From contig JAUXVN010000057.1 of the NCBI GenBank assembly GCA_030684555.1, positions 1-47,155 of the forward strand: 47,155 nt of DNA, given 5' to 3'. The stretch comes from Ignavibacteria bacterium. GTDB taxonomy: Bacteria; Bacteroidota; Ignavibacteria; Ignavibacteriales; Ignavibacteriaceae. Position numbers and translations under genes: made by a program. Positions 13,460 to 21,143 of the stretch are shown piece by piece. Positions within the stretch are counted from its first letter, which is position 1. The number at the start of each line of letters is the position of its first letter. Below the pieces are notes generated by a model. That model was not told the origin of the DNA. It did not search any database and saw nothing but the letters and a program-made list of their open reading frames with translations.

Positions 13460-13966
13460 TTATTTTGAAGTTACAGATGATTTTTTCTGAAGAATTTGTT
13501 CGGGAGAAAGTCCCATATAATTTAGTTCATCTTGAGCAGAACTTGTAAGATCATGATTTGGATATTTTTCAACAAATAACTTATAAGTTTTTGTTGCTTC
13601 ATCAAGTTGATTTAAATCGTTGGCTAAAATAAATCCTTTCATGAAAAGTGCGAGAGGGGCTTCCGGACTAGATGGATGTTTCTGATAAACTTCATCAAAA
13701 TAGTAGATTGCCTTTGTAAGTGATTCAGTTTCATTTATATTTTTTAGCAGTTTACTTTGATAAATTTTTCCAAGTTCATACATCGCAACCGAAGCTTCCC
13801 GGCTTTCAGGATGTTCCTTAATAATTTCCTCAAATAACACGACCGCTCCGGTAATATTATTATTTTTTATTAATTCTGATGCATCTCCAATTAACTCTGA
13901 TGCATCCTTTTTACCACAACCAGTTAGTAAAAATAGGAATACAAATAATGACAGATATTTTTTCAT
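13460..13966 (-). CDS. TPR-repeat lipoprotein
   Basis: 168 residues. N-terminal lipoprotein signal with lipobox LLTGC (Cys17), then about three to four helical TPR-like units: residues ~20-55 (SELIKNNNITGAVVLFEEII), ~60-95, ~100-130 and ~135-150. The layout resembles BamD/YbgF-type Tol-Pal and assembly factors, but it is shorter than BamD (~245) and no specific identity is justified. Predicted to sit on the periplasmic face of a membrane. First gene of a two-gene unit with the DUF58 protein. Confidence 0.75.
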   Translation of the reverse strand: MKKYLSLFVFLFLLTGCGKKDASELIGDASELIKNNNITGAVVLFEEIIKEHPESREASVAMYELGKIYQSKLLKNINETESLTKAIYYFDEVYQKHPSSPEAPLALFMKGFILANDLNQLDEATKTYKLFVEKYPNHDLTSSAQDELNYMGLSPEQILQKKSSVTSK

Positions 13967-14493
13967 CGAAACCCTTAATGAGTAATTTTAAAATGTGAGT
14001 GTAAAGCTATTAAATTAGTTCATGTAGAACAATAGTATTTGACTTCTCTTTATGTTAATATTATCTAACTATTTGGCTCCTCTTAATTGAAGTTTTATAC
14101 GATATTTCACCCATTAATTAACCTCCCCAAATTCTTACTTTACTGTTGATTTATTAAAGATTCCTCTATATGTTACACCGTGTTATGAGAAACATTATTT
14201 TTAAATAAAAAGTCTACCCGGCTTCAGCTGAATAATTTTTTTAGTGAATTTGTAGAGTTTAGGGAAACAATAAAAGTTAGTAATTGATTCGGTGGATGTG
14301 CTTCAAATCACATACTTTAATGTTTAATTTATTTATTTTGCAAGCGACAAATGAGGTAACTATTAAAGTTTTGGAAAATATGAGAACAAGAGATATTTTT
14401 CTGCTGTAAACTAAATTCTTCTTTCGTTGAGAAATTTAAACTAAGTTCAAAACTATATATTTAGTTCCTTCTAATTTTTTTTACAAATGTATT
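13967..14493. other. Long intergenic region upstream of the FecR/CHASE2 cassette
   Basis: About 530 AT-rich bases between divergent genes, with no coding frame of note. One plus-strand promoter-like pair is visible, TTGACT (14039-14044) and TATCTA (14062-14067) with 17-base spacing. It would give a long leader of over 400 bases before the first cassette gene. No riboswitch or small RNA family was recognised. Confidence 0.4.
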
Positions 14494-14503
14494 GGAGGAT
14501 ACA

Positions 14504-15601
14504 ATGAAAAAGAGGCTAACATTATGGAGAGTATTGATTTTCTCATTACTCTCATTCACTTTTAGCACCGCTCAAATTCATACATTCAGGCTGAATGTAT
14601 TCACACCTTTACCACAATTAGATTTTGCTACTTTTGCGGTAACAAATGATTTGCAAGGTGCCCCTACAGTCTTTTCTGTAGAAATTTTACCTGCTGATGA
14701 ATTAGTTATTTTTGAAGGATCTTTTGAATGGAAAGACGTCGGTGAAGCAGGATATACATTTTTTACAAAATTTAGAACAAGACCTTTTAGATCACGTGTT
14801 TTCTTTAATAATACTTTAGGTTCTGAGATTAGAATTGAATCTTCGGAAAATAATAGTAATAGAATCACACAGGCATTGAGAAAAGGTAAACCAACAGGTA
14901 ATTACATCCTGACATTGAAATTGTTCAAAGAAAACGGAAGCCCTTATATTGATCCATCAACAGGACAACAATTTGTGACTTCTGCAGCACTTGAATTTTT
15001 AAATCCGACACAAACATTAGAAATTTTACTTCCAATTCCATCAACCCTACAGGATGTTGGACAGGTAATTGCTAAATGGACACCAGTGCAAGGTGCATCT
15101 AAGTATTTTATCAAAGCAAGTTTGAGAAGAGACAATCGTACCTCCCTTGAAAATGCACTCAGTTCAGGACAAGTATTGATTAATAATGTTGAAGCTAAAG
15201 ATCCAACGGGACAGCCTACAACTGAGATTAATTTGAGGAATTTACTTACCGGTGCGGAATGGTTTGGTGGACAAGAAGTTGTTTTCCAGGTTACAGCATT
15301 TGTAGAAGGACCCAGCGGAGGTCAAAGCATTTTTAGTAATTTGGTTAATTTCTACTTGAAAGATGCTAACACAATGGCATACATGACACTTGTGGGAAAT
15401 ATTGTTTCAATTATGCAATCTTTACCCGGGGGAGTAATTCCTCAAAGTTTAATTAATGATTTTATATCCGGTGCCCTGCAAATAACGGGAATAAAGAGAG
15501 ATGATGGTTCTGATATGCCAATATCTGAAGTTATGGCTTTATTTAATTATCTTGCTCAGAACCCGGGTGAACGTGTTGTTAGTGCAACTTTCAATCAATA
15601 A
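14504..15601 (+). CDS. Secreted protein of unknown function, first gene of the FecR/CHASE2 cassette
   Basis: 365 residues from the ATG at 14504, with GGAGG 5 bases upstream; a frame extension to a TTG at 14492 would swallow that site. Residues 1-23 are a signal peptide (KKR, hydrophobic core, FSTAQ). The mature part is beta-rich. A stretch around 180-270 resembles a fibronectin-III/Ig-like domain (VIAKWTPVQGASKYFIKASL) and a short helical tail follows. No catalytic motif, and I do not recognise the family. The FecR gene begins 31 bases downstream, so the two are probably cotranscribed. Presumed periplasmic or surface-exposed. Confidence 0.75.
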   Translation: MKKRLTLWRVLIFSLLSFTFSTAQIHTFRLNVFTPLPQLDFATFAVTNDLQGAPTVFSVEILPADELVIFEGSFEWKDVGEAGYTFFTKFRTRPFRSRVFFNNTLGSEIRIESSENNSNRITQALRKGKPTGNYILTLKLFKENGSPYIDPSTGQQFVTSAALEFLNPTQTLEILLPIPSTLQDVGQVIAKWTPVQGASKYFIKASLRRDNRTSLENALSSGQVLINNVEAKDPTGQPTTEINLRNLLTGAEWFGGQEVVFQVTAFVEGPSGGQSIFSNLVNFYLKDANTMAYMTLVGNIVSIMQSLPGGVIPQSLINDFISGALQITGIKRDDGSDMPISEVMALFNYLAQNPGERVVSATFNQ

Positions 15602-15632
15602 ATAATAATAGAAATTGAAAAGAGGAAAAAAA

Positions 15633-16331
15633 ATGAATTCCATAATTAAATTAGCAGTATTATTCCTTATACTTCCCGTATTATTATTTGCAGCTGAAAA
15701 CCCCGGCAGTAATGTTTCTAAAAGTGAAAACCCGGTTGCAGTAGTAATGAAAGTTGTTAAGGAAGTAAGTACAAAAAAAGAAGGGACTGATTGGGCTACA
15801 GCAAAAATCGGTCAAACATTAAAAACAGGCGATGAAGTTAAAACAGGAGACAAATCTCTCGCTTTAATTAAATTCACTGATAATTCTTTAATCAGAGTCA
15901 GAGAAAATTCATCATTAAAAATCTTTGCTGACAAAAAAGATAAAACCATTTCAAAAAATACTCATATTGATAAAGGAAGAGTTGGTTTTGAAGTTGCTAA
16001 ACAAGAAAATGAAGAGTTTAAGTTTACAACCCCAACGATGGTGGCGTCTATCCGTGGTACAGAGGGATTTTTTGATGTATTCCCGGATGGAGCTTCTTTA
16101 TTAGTAGTTGCGAGAGGATTAATTGAAGTACTTGGAACTCTTGGTAATAAAGACGGCGGTAATGTTGGTGCAGGTCAGTACGTTATGTACAATAACAATG
16201 GAGATATGACTCTTGGCGATGCAACAGAAGGAATGATGAAAGATCAACAAGGAACAAGATCAACGAACCTAAAAAAGATAAGGATTCAAACCAGTCAAGG
16301 TGAATTGGTTATCGAATATTACGCAGAATAA
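15633..16331 (+). CDS. Secreted FecR-domain protein
   Basis: 232 residues from the ATG at 15633 (AGAGGA upstream); an upstream TTG at 15615 is unlikely. Signal peptide ~1-20. The FecR domain covers ~50-165: a variable strand with WATAKIGQTLKTGDEVKTG, then SLALIKFTDNSLIRVRENSSL, and the conserved TPTMVASIRGTEGFFDV followed by a hydrophobic strand (LLVVARGLIEVLG). Here it is an exported stand-alone domain, not the membrane anti-sigma factor of iron uptake: there is no sigma factor or TonB receptor beside it. Such FecR domains often occur with CHASE2 cyclases, as in this locus. Function unknown, presumably periplasmic ligand or peptidoglycan binding. Confidence 0.88.
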   Translation: MNSIIKLAVLFLILPVLLFAAENPGSNVSKSENPVAVVMKVVKEVSTKKEGTDWATAKIGQTLKTGDEVKTGDKSLALIKFTDNSLIRVRENSSLKIFADKKDKTISKNTHIDKGRVGFEVAKQENEEFKFTTPTMVASIRGTEGFFDVFPDGASLLVVARGLIEVLGTLGNKDGGNVGAGQYVMYNNNGDMTLGDATEGMMKDQQGTRSTNLKKIRIQTSQGELVIEYYAE

Positions 16332-16337
16332 TCTTTG

Positions 16338-16374
16338 AAACTCGACATTATAATTTTAATGTCGAGTTTTTTTT
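16338..16374 (+). terminator. Rho-independent terminator after the FecR gene
   Basis: 13-bp stem AAACTCGACATTA (16338-16350) with TAATGTCGAGTTT (16357-16369), 6-base loop, then an eight-T run. It separates the secreted-protein/FecR pair from the barrel/cyclase pair, which therefore may have its own promoter in 16375-16473. Confidence 0.9.
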
Positions 16375-16473
16375 ATACATATGGAAGATTGATTATCGTT
16401 TTTGTATTTTATGTGGGTTAATCTTCGATAGTTTTAATCAACAGTTGTTCAAAAGATTCTTGGAGGGCTATAC

Positions 16474-18891
16474 ATGAACTCAAATTTTACTTCACTAAAA
16501 ATTTTCCTTTTCACATCTATTTTTTTAATATTTACTTTTTCTACTGCCTATTCTCAAATGAGTAGTTATATTTCCTCTGTTAAAGCATTAGATGTTCAAG
16601 AAAATGAAGAAGCGGAAATTACTCTTAATTTTTTTCAAACACAGGGGCTGAATAAAGTTCTACTTGCATATAGAACTTTTGGTGAAAGTGAATATAAAGA
16701 GATGGAGGTGATGGTCTCCGGAACTAATGGTAAAGTAAATATTTCGGCTGAGAATGTTACACCTCCCTTTATTGAGTACTATTTTGTTTTACAAAAAAAT
16801 ACAGGACAGAGCGAAACATATCCGCTTGGTTTTCCTTATGAAAGTTCTCCATTACAATTGAGAGTCAACTCAGCTTCTCCAAAAGATAAAGAAGTTATTT
16901 TGATGAGTCCCGAAAGAAATTCTCAAATTGCAGCAAGTGATTTTTTTGTTTCTATTTCACTTCTGAGAGCATCAGATGAAATTGACAAAGCTGCAACTAA
17001 AATTTTTATAGATAATACAGACATCACTAACCTTGCATTATTTGCAGATGATCTTATTATTTTTTCCGCAGAAAACTTTCCAAAATCCGTTAGCCTTGGA
17101 ACTCACTTATTAAGAATTGAGGTTTACGACAAATCAAATCAATTGTATCACACAATATCTTCAAAATTTACAATCTTAACATCCGAACAAGCTGTTGCAA
17201 TGGGCGATAGGGTGAATTACAGAGTAAATGTTACCGGAGAATCCCGCAACGAAAATATTAAGTCAAATTCAAATTGGTTTAACAATATAAATGTTGATGC
17301 AACTGCCGATTATAAATCGTGGGAAGCAAGAGCCAATATTTATGTTACTTCCGAAGAGAAAAAATATTTGCAGCCATTTAATCGCTACAGTCTAAATGTT
17401 CGCAATGGTTGGTTAAGTGTTGATGTTGGTGATAATTACCCAGTTTACCCTTCAAATATATTAAGTGGTAGAAGAGTACGTGGTGTAAACGGAAGTTTAA
17501 ATCTTGGATTTTTTAATTTACAGGTTACTCTTGGTGAGACTGAAAGAGATATTGAAGGGCAATTACTTCAGGTGCTTTCCGATACCAGTACTTCACACTC
17601 ATTTAATACTATCCAAATCGACTCAACAAAGTACAGAGATGCAGACGGTAATCCTGCCAGTAGAGGGATTGTAAATATTGGAACGTATAAAAGAAATATT
17701 TTTGCGGTACGTCCTTCTTTCGGAAAGGGAGAGAATTTTCAATGGGGATTTACTTATCTTCATTCCCAGGACGATCCTAAGTCTATTGAGTTCGGTGTCA
17801 AACCTCAGGAAAATCTTGTTTTAGGAACTGATCTTTTGGTTGCATTTGATGATCAAAAAGTAATGTTCACGGCTCAGGGAGCATTCAGTTTATTAAATAA
17901 AGATATTGCAACAGGAGAACTTAAAGATGAGCTTATAGATTCTCTTGCGGTTGCTATTGGAACAAGTGCCAGCACATTTAGAACAATCAGAGATGTATTA
18001 GGTACATTTATTACTGTTAATCAATTCCTTATACCTCTAAATCCTCAAGAATTACCAACGGTAGCTGCAGAAGCTGCAATGGCAGTTAACTATTTCGGAA
18101 ACTTCTTCAAGGTTAGTTATCAATATAGAGGTAATGATTATGTTTCATTTGGTCAAAACTTTTTGCGTACTGATATTGCCGGTATTAGTTTGACTGATCG
18201 TTTACGATTATTTCAAAATAAATTGTTCTTATCTTTAACCTATGAAAACTTGAATGATAATATTCAGGAGACAAAACTAAATACAACGAATTATCAAAAT
18301 TTAAGTTCTTCAGTTTCTTATTATCCAAGAGTTGATTTACCTAGTTTTACTCTTTCATATGCAAACTACTCGACAAAAAATGATGCACCTGAAAAAATTA
18401 ATGATACACTCAATATAATGTATCTTAATAGTATAACCGGACGAATGGGATTTCAGGTCGCCTATGACTTTTTCTTTAAATACCGCCATCAGGCTTCACT
18501 AAGTATTAATTATACAAGCGGTGATGACAAAACATTCCGCGATTATGATATAACTAATCTTTCATTATATTTAGTAACCAATACAACATGGACTGACAGA
18601 CTTCAATCCAACTTCAATATAAGTATAAACCAAAGTGAGGTAGTTAAGACAACATTCAATTACACCACACTTGGAATAGGCGCAAGATATGTACTTATTA
18701 AAGATAAACTAAACCTTAACGGTTCATATAACCCGAGTTTTGGCGATTTAAAAAGAAATCTTTTAGAAATAAGTTCACAATATTTTGTGATGAAAAATCT
18801 TAATCTACAGTTGAATGTTCGCTGGATAAATTATGCAGGTGGATTTAATGACACATTCTTTGGTTTAACTACAAATTATTCTTTCTACTAA
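16474..18891 (+). CDS. Outer-membrane beta-barrel protein with N-terminal Ig-like region
   Basis: 805 residues; ATG with TTGGAGG at good distance. Signal peptide ~1-27 (FSTAYSQ). Residues ~30-245 are beta-rich Ig-like repeats: EAEITLNFFQTQ...VLLAYRTF, and SQIAASDFFVSISLLRA...KIFIDNTDIT. From ~255 to the end, amphipathic strands alternate with short turns (WEARANIYVTS, LSVDVGDNYPVYPSNILSGRRVRG), and the chain ends TTNYSFY, a C-terminal aromatic typical of outer-membrane barrels. No plug domain or TonB box, so not an obvious TonB-dependent receptor. Family not recognised. Lies five bases before the CHASE2 cyclase gene, so the two are surely cotranscribed. A surface sensor or scaffold is plausible but unproven. 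Confidence 0.75.
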   Translation: MNSNFTSLKIFLFTSIFLIFTFSTAYSQMSSYISSVKALDVQENEEAEITLNFFQTQGLNKVLLAYRTFGESEYKEMEVMVSGTNGKVNISAENVTPPFIEYYFVLQKNTGQSETYPLGFPYESSPLQLRVNSASPKDKEVILMSPERNSQIAASDFFVSISLLRASDEIDKAATKIFIDNTDITNLALFADDLIIFSAENFPKSVSLGTHLLRIEVYDKSNQLYHTISSKFTILTSEQAVAMGDRVNYRVNVTGESRNENIKSNSNWFNNINVDATADYKSWEARANIYVTSEEKKYLQPFNRYSLNVRNGWLSVDVGDNYPVYPSNILSGRRVRGVNGSLNLGFFNLQVTLGETERDIEGQLLQVLSDTSTSHSFNTIQIDSTKYRDADGNPASRGIVNIGTYKRNIFAVRPSFGKGENFQWGFTYLHSQDDPKSIEFGVKPQENLVLGTDLLVAFDDQKVMFTAQGAFSLLNKDIATGELKDELIDSLAVAIGTSASTFRTIRDVLGTFITVNQFLIPLNPQELPTVAAEAAMAVNYFGNFFKVSYQYRGNDYVSFGQNFLRTDIAGISLTDRLRLFQNKLFLSLTYENLNDNIQETKLNTTNYQNLSSSVSYYPRVDLPSFTLSYANYSTKNDAPEKINDTLNIMYLNSITGRMGFQVAYDFFFKYRHQASLSINYTSGDDKTFRDYDITNLSLYLVTNTTWTDRLQSNFNISINQSEVVKTTFNYTTLGIGARYVLIKDKLNLNGSYNPSFGDLKRNLLEISSQYFVMKNLNLQLNVRWINYAGGFNDTFFGLTTNYSFY

Positions 18892-18896
18892 TAAGT

Positions 18897-21143
18897 ATGA
18901 AATTTGGGAGAGAGAAATTAACTAAAGCAGCTATAGCACTCGCAATAGCTGCTTTCTCACTAATTATCACCCAGGATATTTATTTTTCAATTGGTCCCCT
19001 TGATTCACTTAGACAAAGTTTTATTGATCAACGTTTTTCCGACCGCGGCGTTGTACCTATCAAAGAGAAATCTTCCGTTGTTATTGTAGAAATTACAAGA
19101 AATACACACGAAGGTATTCCTGCCCCCTATAATACCTGGCCTTTTGCTCGTTTTATTTTTGCGAAATTGATTAAAAATTTGTCGGATGCCGGAGCTAAAG
19201 CTATCGGAATAGATATTGTTATGTCAGCACCTGATAAAAATAATCCGATTTATGATTCACTAATGATTGATGCAATTCGCAATAGTGGAAACGTTGTTGT
19301 TGCCGGGAAAATTGAAGAGATTTCAGGAAATGTAACTGTCCAAAATGTTAGTGAAGATTTCAGTGTTTCTGTCTCAGGACCATCATTTCAAATTACTCGT
19401 GTTCATGAAGATTTTAGCAATTACTATTTTCAAGCCGACAGTTCTATTGGGATTGTTCAAGTAATTGGTGATAATGATGGTGTTTATAGGCGCTATTTAC
19501 CTTTCATGTATTCAACATCTGCCGATCGTTTAGTTCCAACTTTTGGTTTTGCTCTTCTGAACAAATACTATGGTTTGAATAAAGACTATCTTCCCAAAAA
19601 TTCTACTAATCATTTTGTACTTGGCGATATTAAAATACCCAAGTATGATAATGTTTCTATGCTAATCAATTATTATGGACCGGATGGAACGTTTCCTAAA
19701 GTTGATTTTATAGATGTAATAGATGACAGCGAATTTCACACTTCTGATGAAATTGAACTTGAAACTGATATTAATACCTGGGATGACCCCGAGTATGGAT
19801 TAAAATTTAAAGATTTTTTCAAAGACAAAATTGTTTTAATTGGTTCTACCCAGCCGGAAGATAAGGATATTCTCCCTGTCGCTTTTGCTAAAGGTGAAAA
19901 GACCGGCGATAATAATATGTACGGAGTTGAACTCCACGCAAATGCTATCCAGAATATTATTAATCAAGACTTTTTAATAAAGTTACCAAAATTATATGAA
20001 ATTTTTATTTTAGTTCTTCTTTCACTTGTTAGTTTCTATGTCTCTTCATTTTTTAAATCAGTTAAAACCAAATATGGGATATTTTTAGAATTTGCTAATC
20101 TCATTGTAATAGCATTAATACTTGTCGGAATTAGATATTTTTCTTTCTCGATATTCGAGAACAACAATTTTATTTTCCCGATTATAAACCCCTCATTAAC
20201 AGTTGCACTCGGATATTTTGGAAGTACTGCCTATCACTTCATTACCGAACGAAAACAAAAGGCAATGATTAAAGGCATGTTCAGTCAATATGTAAATGCA
20301 ACTGTGGTTAATGATATTGTCAGTAATCCCGATAAGTTAAAACTTGGTGGTGAAAGGAAAACGCTTTCTGTTTTTTTTAGTGATATTGCCGGATTTTCGA
20401 CTTTCTCAGAAACAAAAGACCCGGCAGAGTTAGTCTCTTTTCTGAATGAGTACTTAGGTGAAATGACAAAAATAATTTTTGAAAACAAAGGGACTCTCGA
20501 CAAGTATATTGGCGATGCTGTAATGGCTTTTTGGGGAGCTCCAATTCCATTCGACAATCATGCTTCCTTAACTTGTTCCTCTGCACTAAAAATGCAGGCA
20601 CGTCTATCTGAAATGCGAAAGAAGTGGGAAACCGAAGGTCAAACTGTTATTGATATAAGAATGGGGATTAATTCCGGTGACATGATCGTTGGAAATATGG
20701 GAGGTAAAGAAAGATTCGATTATACTGTAATGGGTGATAATGTGAATCTTGCCTCACGATTAGAAGGTGCAAATAAAGAATATAGTACGCGAATAATGAT
20801 TTCTGAAATGACTCATGATATTGTTAAAGATGAGTTTTTCACAAGAGAGTTAGATGTAATTGTTGTCAAAGGAAAAACTAAACCAATTAGAGTTTTTGAA
20901 CTTTTGGGTAATGATGAATTCCCGCCAAGCGAAACGCTTAAAGAATCTTTTGCCTTTTATTGTGACGCGATGAAAGAATATAAAAGCAAGAATTTTTCAA
21001 ACGCTATCTCTCTTTTTGAAAATGCCTTGAAAATAAATCCCGAAGATGGACCTTCAAAAGTATATATTAAAAGATGTAAATTATTTTTAGAAACTCCCCC
21101 GCCTGATGATTGGGATGGTGTTTTTATAATGAAAACAAAATAA
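18897..21143 (+). CDS. CHASE2-domain class III adenylate cyclase
   Basis: 748 residues. One N-terminal membrane helix (~9-29), a periplasmic CHASE2 domain (~35-360), a cluster of membrane helices (~366-386, ~400-418, ~424-446), then a cytoplasmic class III cyclase domain (~485-670). Active-site residues are intact: metal-binding Asp496 (FFSDIAGF) and Asp540 (GDAVMAFWG), purine-selecting Lys536 (LDKYIG) and Thr610 (DYTVMGD), transition-state Asn617 and Arg621 (NLASRLEG). The Lys/Thr pair points to ATP, so the product should be cAMP. A C-terminal TPR-like helix pair (~685-730) is followed by the WDGVFIM tail common in this family. No ribosome site is seen; translation is probably coupled to the barrel gene. 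Confidence 0.93.
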   Translation: MKFGREKLTKAAIALAIAAFSLIITQDIYFSIGPLDSLRQSFIDQRFSDRGVVPIKEKSSVVIVEITRNTHEGIPAPYNTWPFARFIFAKLIKNLSDAGAKAIGIDIVMSAPDKNNPIYDSLMIDAIRNSGNVVVAGKIEEISGNVTVQNVSEDFSVSVSGPSFQITRVHEDFSNYYFQADSSIGIVQVIGDNDGVYRRYLPFMYSTSADRLVPTFGFALLNKYYGLNKDYLPKNSTNHFVLGDIKIPKYDNVSMLINYYGPDGTFPKVDFIDVIDDSEFHTSDEIELETDINTWDDPEYGLKFKDFFKDKIVLIGSTQPEDKDILPVAFAKGEKTGDNNMYGVELHANAIQNIINQDFLIKLPKLYEIFILVLLSLVSFYVSSFFKSVKTKYGIFLEFANLIVIALILVGIRYFSFSIFENNNFIFPIINPSLTVALGYFGSTAYHFITERKQKAMIKGMFSQYVNATVVNDIVSNPDKLKLGGERKTLSVFFSDIAGFSTFSETKDPAELVSFLNEYLGEMTKIIFENKGTLDKYIGDAVMAFWGAPIPFDNHASLTCSSALKMQARLSEMRKKWETEGQTVIDIRMGINSGDMIVGNMGGKERFDYTVMGDNVNLASRLEGANKEYSTRIMISEMTHDIVKDEFFTRELDVIVVKGKTKPIRVFELLGNDEFPPSETLKESFAFYCDAMKEYKSKNFSNAISLFENALKINPEDGPSKVYIKRCKLFLETPPPDDWDGVFIMKTK

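Follow-up and report, generated by a model that had tools for sequence, protein, structure and literature searches.

A conserved gene cassette of Ignavibacteria as a candidate split receptor linking an outer-membrane barrel to a CHASE2 cyclase

Introduction

In FecI-FecR-FecA iron signalling, a FecR domain stands between the outer membrane and the cytoplasmic output. The closest described system that ends in a CHASE2 cyclase is NsrA-CyaK of S. meliloti. As presented in the accessible parts of the papers cited here and below, the outer-membrane protein NsrA is needed for the response of the CHASE2 cyclase CyaK to plant signals (PMC7529298, PMC13001267, PMC10463352), which gives genetic support to the pair as a route by which a receptor in the outer membrane acts on a CHASE2 cyclase; the published papers predict a barrel at the C-terminus of NsrA (PMC7529298, PMC13001267). 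In Campylobacterota, a CHASE2 adenylate cyclase is encoded next to a FecR-domain outer-membrane protein, and the authors suggested one pathway (PMC9239204). The Burkholderia BiofilmReg operon encodes a LysM-FecR protein and a CHASE2 kinase and is tied to biofilm, and the same 2016 paper stated that what CHASE2 domains recognise was unknown (PMC5192318). Here we analysed a 47,155-nt stretch of DNA (the window) from an Ignavibacteria bacterium (GCA_030684555.1, contig JAUXVN010000057.1), in which four open reading frames (ORFs) lie in a row on the plus strand within positions 14504-21143. They encode an exported protein (SEC), a FecR-domain protein (FECR), a predicted outer-membrane barrel (BARREL) and a CHASE2 cyclase (CYC). 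We find that this cassette is conserved, and that it probably acts as a receptor-to-cyclase relay.

Results

Linkage of the four genes

A preliminary description of the region had proposed an envelope-to-cAMP signalling cassette and had set as its test whether the other three genes stay linked to that of the CHASE2 cyclase. This linkage was conserved in relatives, in named loci and in a phylum-wide sample, and homologues of the barrel and the secreted protein, rather than being scattered, were linked in most loci. Among 59 genomes of relatives, the source genome included, BARREL was matched in 32; 31 hold a full-size copy, two of which are split across two contigs. CYC, FECR and SEC each lay beside BARREL in 28 of the 29 relative loci. 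One locus (L031) is truncated by the start of its contig, and at another (L009/L038, G013:C87) a second SEC copy directly follows BARREL in the place of CYC and runs off the contig end; in the other BARREL copy of that genome (C206, L050) the cyclase follows. Strong SEC matches (E < 1e-60) occurred in exactly the 31 genomes with a full-size BARREL and in none of the 28 others, as counted by hand from no more than 35 scored candidates in each genome. We disregarded weaker SEC matches, most of which lie within larger ORFs, as reflecting shared domains of the FN3 type.

Scanning the GTDB species genomes yielded 77 named loci, of which 76 were used; the one dropped (L109), from an alphaproteobacterial metagenome-assembled genome (MAG), has a 174-aa ORF that corresponds to a fragment of BARREL. 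One locus with the cassette (L074) belongs to the named strain Stygiobacter electus 09-Me. CYC was located 3' of BARREL in 71/76 loci, FECR 5' of it in 68/76 and SEC in 61/76, and all four genes were found in 57/76. BARREL is 30-47% identical to the source copy across these loci with one exception (76%), the nearest named relative being the copy of an Ignavibacteriaceae MAG (L033, 76% identity). Among the 19 incomplete loci, eight begin or stop within the cassette at a contig end, and in seven (L080, L081, L091, L094, L095, L099 and L102) the position of SEC is taken by an ORF of 353-399 aa that had no match; L094 also ends before any CYC. One more is the contig with the second SEC copy (L038), and the last three are exceptions considered below.

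We further surveyed 395 genomes of the phylum. The BARREL profile matched at least 134 of them at E ≤ 0.001, and 93 genomes with 95 loci at E ≤ 1.6e-41; the latter were used for counting neighbours. Two first-look candidates per genome were scored for BARREL and CYC and seven for FECR, so that a second copy may have escaped detection. In 75 of the 95 loci, BARREL had FECR upstream and CYC downstream. The remaining 20 comprise five loci that meet a contig edge (G021 and G055 contribute two halves each and G129 one), four loci of family f21 at which the search matched only the C-terminal part of CYC (one of them, L130, was complete on inspection), one genome with its CYC match on another contig (G289) and ten loci with an unlinked BARREL, which are weighed below. 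BARREL, FECR and CYC were all present in 92 genomes, and any of the three in 103; the exceptions are G129, with BARREL and no FECR at a contig start, and ten genomes with CYC and no BARREL at threshold, five of which also hold FECR. Moreover, 78 of the 82 strongest CYC matches adjoin BARREL. The thresholds for co-presence were chosen after the ranked lists and P values ignore shared descent, and we relied on the counts alone. These results indicate that the cassette is, nearly certainly, a conserved functional unit.

Components of the putative relay

CYC matched the Pfam families CHASE2 (PF05226, E 3e-48; 165.2 bits against a cut-off of 26.3) and Guanylate_cyc (E 2e-28). The hallmarks of class III adenylate cyclases are two metal-binding Asp residues, a base-recognising Lys with Thr/Asp, and an Asn and an Arg that act on the transition state. 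The corresponding residues of CYC, which the preliminary description had read as intact, were invariant in 32 aligned homologues: D496 and D540, which we take to be the metal ligands, K536 and T610, presumably for base recognition, and N617 and R621, presumably for the transition state. We take the Lys536/Thr610 pairing to be typical of adenylate rather than guanylate cyclases. The cyclase domain aligned with CyaB (PDB 3r5g, E 1e-62), and the product of CYC would be cAMP. The source genome has two class III cyclase matches in total.

FECR matched PF04773 (E 2e-14) and no other Pfam domain above cut-off, with DUF7354 below it. Its homology to the FecR domain of NsrA was detected by hhalign (97.8%, E 9.6e-13, 136 columns). 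For SEC, no Pfam family was found at E ≤ 1, and NCBIfam gave one match at E 0.08; its predicted structure (pLDDT 88) has beta domains followed by helices, with FN3 domains as the best structural matches (top Z 9.1). Export signals were read by eye at the N-termini of SEC, FECR and BARREL. SEC-like domains also occur inside ORFs of ~4000 residues (G007:C43, G008:C1:1434088, G025:C400), perhaps giant surface proteins.

The predicted structure of BARREL (pLDDT 85.6, pTM 0.74) has two Ig-like beta domains and then the barrel, the domain limits and the strand count in Table 1 being read by eye from the DSSP line of the model. This predicted fold suggests that BARREL lies in the outer membrane. The Ig-like region has a weak match to peptidylarginine deiminase (E 3e-4). 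Some proteins match the barrel part of BARREL alone and have other N-termini (L111:3699-5408, L113:3554-5266, L112:1512-4352, L140:5883-7607), so the barrel domain belongs to a wider family. The FecR proteins of two loci (L080 and L081) have an extra C-terminal domain matched by the BARREL profile, and that of another (L141) has three extra domain copies matching the N-terminal Ig-like region of BARREL. This is expected if FecR and the periplasmic domains of the barrel protein act together, with the caveat that Ig-like domains are common and mobile.

We propose, from the NsrA precedent and the logic of the domains, that the cassette is likely to encode a receptor that spans the envelope and signals through cAMP, with the architecture of NsrA-CyaK divided among separate proteins; we put the probability of such a receptor-to-cyclase relay at roughly 0.6. 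BARREL in the outer membrane would meet an outside ligand or state, and its periplasmic Ig-like domains, with the exported SEC, would hold or gate the soluble FECR. FECR would relay the change to CYC in the inner membrane by way of its CHASE2 domain, which would face the periplasm, and the cyclase domain would then alter its cAMP output. A regulator of the CRP family would read cAMP and act also on the cassette's own promoter. The physical contacts, the direction of the signal, the ligand, cAMP as the product and the binding of CRP are elements that we infer.

CHASE2 domains were also found in other settings. A further CHASE2 protein of the source genome, encoded on another contig (C145, L110:249-6987), lacks a cyclase domain; its neighbours are a weak FecR-like, a TPR/CHAT-like and a VWA/OmpA-like protein (the last two recognised by eye). 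In a relative, CHASE2 is fused to a sigma-54 activator domain (L122:6300-8747), another CHASE2 output, and many relatives have CHASE2 frames similar in size to this fusion. CHASE2 cyclases without a barrel adjoin WD40-like, TPR/NHL or weak DUF4384-like proteins (L126:12848-17254, L124:3598-8269 and L116:1102-8577), and these neighbours suggest other CHASE2 input modules.

A CRP-type dyad upstream of SEC

The dyad TGTGA-N6-TCACA, with at most one mismatch, was found upstream of SEC in 9 of 47 regions thinned to < 60% SEC identity, two of them perfect, where Markov resampling gave an expectation of 0.35; the source copy is TGTGCTTCAAATCACA. Of 322 control regions, taken upstream of other genes of those loci, 2 had the dyad. 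By excess over expectation it ranked second among the 1024 five-base dyads of this spacing. The dyad that tops it, AGCAT-N6-ATGCT (14 vs 0.07 expected), lies 245-300 bases upstream in 13 of 14 regions (154 in L051) and was set aside as part of a neighbouring coding region, since the stretch varies at about every third base as judged by eye; the overlapping AACAT dyad was set aside likewise. The source genome has six matches to cNMP-binding domains, one of which (G000:C6, 229 aa) contains a GE...RSA motif and an SRETISR helix motif, which we take to be the pocket and helix features of a CRP-type protein. The enrichment of the dyad suggests a cAMP-CRP feedback on the cassette.

Alternative readings of BARREL and the cassette

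The preliminary description had recognised no family for either the barrel or the 365-residue secreted protein, and database searches bore this out, BARREL having no Pfam family at E ≤ 1 and no NCBIfam match. The fold lists for the cassette models include, among the matches listed, many porins, TonB receptors, ushers and FN3 proteins. One could imagine that BARREL, as a pore or a platform for assembly, serves to export or anchor SEC or some other protein of the surface, that FECR and CYC report the state of export or of the envelope, and that cAMP tunes surface genes, the signal being internal (assembly or stress) with no outside ligand. SEC looks exported and is usually encoded upstream, usher pores also rank high in Foldseek, weaker matches to the SEC profile lie within very large ORFs, some of ~4000 aa, and the LysM-FecR and CHASE2-kinase operon of Burkholderia has its tie to biofilm (PMC5192318, in its accessible text). 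However, the usher matches are at the fold level only and weaker than that of MtrB, no secretion-pathway gene was recognised by eye among the immediate neighbours, and the NsrA precedent is a receptor. We consider this export reading unlikely.

The closest solved fold to BARREL is that of the porin MtrB (6r2q_B; Z 18.1, rmsd 4.2 over 455 residues), the next match having Z 15.3. Both are large barrels, and BARREL might be an MtrB-like conduit for extracellular electron transfer, or a solute channel, with the cyclase linked only by sensing that process. The identity is only 12%, BARREL has N-terminal Ig-like domains, and a PDB profile search with BARREL returned no MtrB chain at E ≤ 1. A search of the source genome with PF11854 (MtrB_PioB) did not match BARREL and instead found an 849-aa frame on another contig (G000:C19:2233-4635, L168/L169; E 1e-64), a true MtrB_PioB porin, and by eye the four cassette proteins showed no CxxCH haem motif, the search for cytochromes having been limited to these proteins. 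We regard the conduit reading as highly improbable. Nor was BARREL assigned with confidence to an unrelated transporter, an outcome that the preliminary description had named as fatal to its proposal: sequence searches gave no match in Pfam or NCBIfam and no convincing one in the PDB, and assignment to a known transporter family was rejected. The porin on contig C19 hints at extracellular electron transfer, apart from BARREL.

That the genes are co-inherited neighbours without a shared function, which fits the facts that the carriers are all related, so that counts are not independent, and that linkage is lost in some relatives, is scarcely credible given that gene order is kept at 30-47% BARREL identity, that co-presence outlasts linkage (92/103 genomes) and that FecR and barrel proteins have a domain in common.

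Several observations weigh against the receptor-to-cyclase relay. Three named loci are real exceptions to the layout: L084 and L105 have SEC-FECR-BARREL with CYC absent from the flank examined, and L070 has BARREL-CYC without FECR or SEC before BARREL. In the ten phylum-sample loci mentioned above (10/95; families f24, f39 and f51) BARREL is unlinked and the genes are dispersed, so adjacency is not obligatory. All ten genomes hold FECR and CYC matches elsewhere; in the cyclase tree all ten cyclases group with L130, a cassette cyclase of f21 (support 99), and together with it they fall within the main set of cassette cyclases (support 96), apart from the barrel-less ones, and thus look like cassette cyclases whose linkage was lost. 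Related CHASE2 cyclases without BARREL also exist (nine rows, two of them identical). We do not claim monophyly of the barrel-linked cyclases, which form one side of a branch with a support of only 65 in a quick tree with long branches.

The remaining points concern NsrA and transcription. Between BARREL and the NsrA barrel hhalign gave no match, with an NsrA profile that is shallow (Neff 2), and neither FECR nor BARREL has a Pfam match to TPR, so that no TPR stands between FecR and barrel. With homology of the FecR domains and none detected between the barrels, the cassette resembles a split NsrA, and we do not assign it to the NsrA family. By raw count the CRP dyad ranks only 16th of 1024, behind mostly A+T-rich dyads. 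Finally, a terminator-like hairpin (G-T pairs allowed) was found in 9 of 64 gaps between FECR and BARREL, the source locus included, so the four genes may not form a single simple transcript, and SEC-FECR and BARREL-CYC may be made at different levels. This gap ranges from 5 to 347 bases across loci; the median gaps are 13 bases for SEC-FECR (57 loci) and 7.5 bases for BARREL-CYC (60 loci).

Layout of the source locus

The source genome comprises 4.34 Mb in 152 contigs, one of which is the window. The four consecutive plus-strand genes of the preliminary description were recovered as ORFs at the positions it gave (Table 1), as was the five-base spacer between BARREL and CYC (18892-18896). The other neighbours are a thioredoxin-like gene on the plus strand and a divergent TPR lipoprotein gene.

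Table 1 Features of the cassette and its upstream region, in window coordinates
Feature	Position	Strand	Description
CRP-like dyad TGTGC-TTCAAA-TCACA	14297-14312	no strand	9/10 consensus positions; 192-207 bases 5' of the SEC start
SEC	14504-15601	+	365 aa from ATG 14504; exported; FN3/Ig-like domains, then C-terminal helices; no Pfam family
FECR	15633-16331	+	232 aa; exported; FecR domain ~15831-16121
Terminator-like hairpin	16337-16370	+	14-bp stem, then T run; between FECR and BARREL
BARREL	16474-18891	+	805 aa; Ig-like ~16555-17211; barrel ~17212-18888, ~26-28 strands; predicted outer-membrane
CYC	18897-21143	+	748 aa; CHASE2 18990-20030; class III cyclase 20358-20888; weak C-terminal TPR-like match

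Discussion

A CHASE2 cyclase, a FecR protein and a barrel kept together in dozens of genomes provide a concrete model in which CHASE2 would be driven from the outer membrane, and since parts that are fused in NsrA stand here as separate genes, they can be tested one by one. More tentatively, and at somewhat less than even odds, the cassettes may represent a class of receptors that occurs throughout the lineage, in Ignavibacteria and at least one further class of the phylum. Such receptors would be split into four components, lead from the outer membrane to cAMP, have barrel and FN3 families of their own that are as yet unnamed, and include a feedback through cAMP-CRP.

The preliminary description knew of no described system with this layout. 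This holds for the split four-gene layout, which was not found in the published literature by a search that misses most subscription papers; the same search gave no relevant paper on adenylate cyclases in Ignavibacteria. It does not hold for systems leading from the outer membrane or FecR to a CHASE2 cyclase, of which NsrA-CyaK and the Campylobacterota cluster are described in the accessible text of their papers.

In NsrA-CyaK, as in the cassette, a FecR domain, a predicted outer-membrane barrel and a CHASE2 cyclase are encoded side by side with the cyclase directly downstream: nsrA directly precedes cyaK, with Pfam matches to FecR and TPR repeats in NsrA and to CHASE2 and cyclase in CyaK, and the pair was found in five of five further plasmid records (Methylocystis, Neorhizobium, Ensifer and two Rhizobium). 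NsrA fuses FecR, TPR and barrel in one chain, whereas FECR and BARREL are separate here and the cassette has SEC, an additional FN3 protein. A gene annotated as DUF5706 (S. meliloti pSymB, L114:1144-1689) or as Pycsar system effector family (Rhizobium sp. BG4, L146:4349-4888) lies divergently just upstream of nsrA-cyaK; the proximity of a cyclic-nucleotide effector to a receptor cyclase may merit study.

The Campylobacterota cluster likewise has a CHASE2 cyclase beside a FecR-domain protein; in its accessible description it contains a phosphodiesterase and a TPR protein, where the cassette has SEC and BARREL instead (PMC9239204). Adjacent to the cassette no phosphodiesterase was recognised, and a TPR gene occurs only as the divergent lipoprotein gene at 13460-13966. 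The Burkholderia operon also encodes a FecR-domain protein beside a CHASE2 sensor, but it signals through a histidine kinase and a response regulator rather than cAMP, its FecR is fused to LysM, and the term 'outer membrane' is absent from the main text of the paper in its accessible form (PMC5192318).

With FecI-FecR-FecA the cassette shares a FecR domain linking the outer membrane with a cytoplasmic output, although FECR and BARREL have no Pfam match to an anti-sigma, STN, plug or TonB-receptor domain. If the cassettes do form the class of split receptors suggested above, they would parallel FecIRA signalling, with a second messenger in place of the sigma factor.

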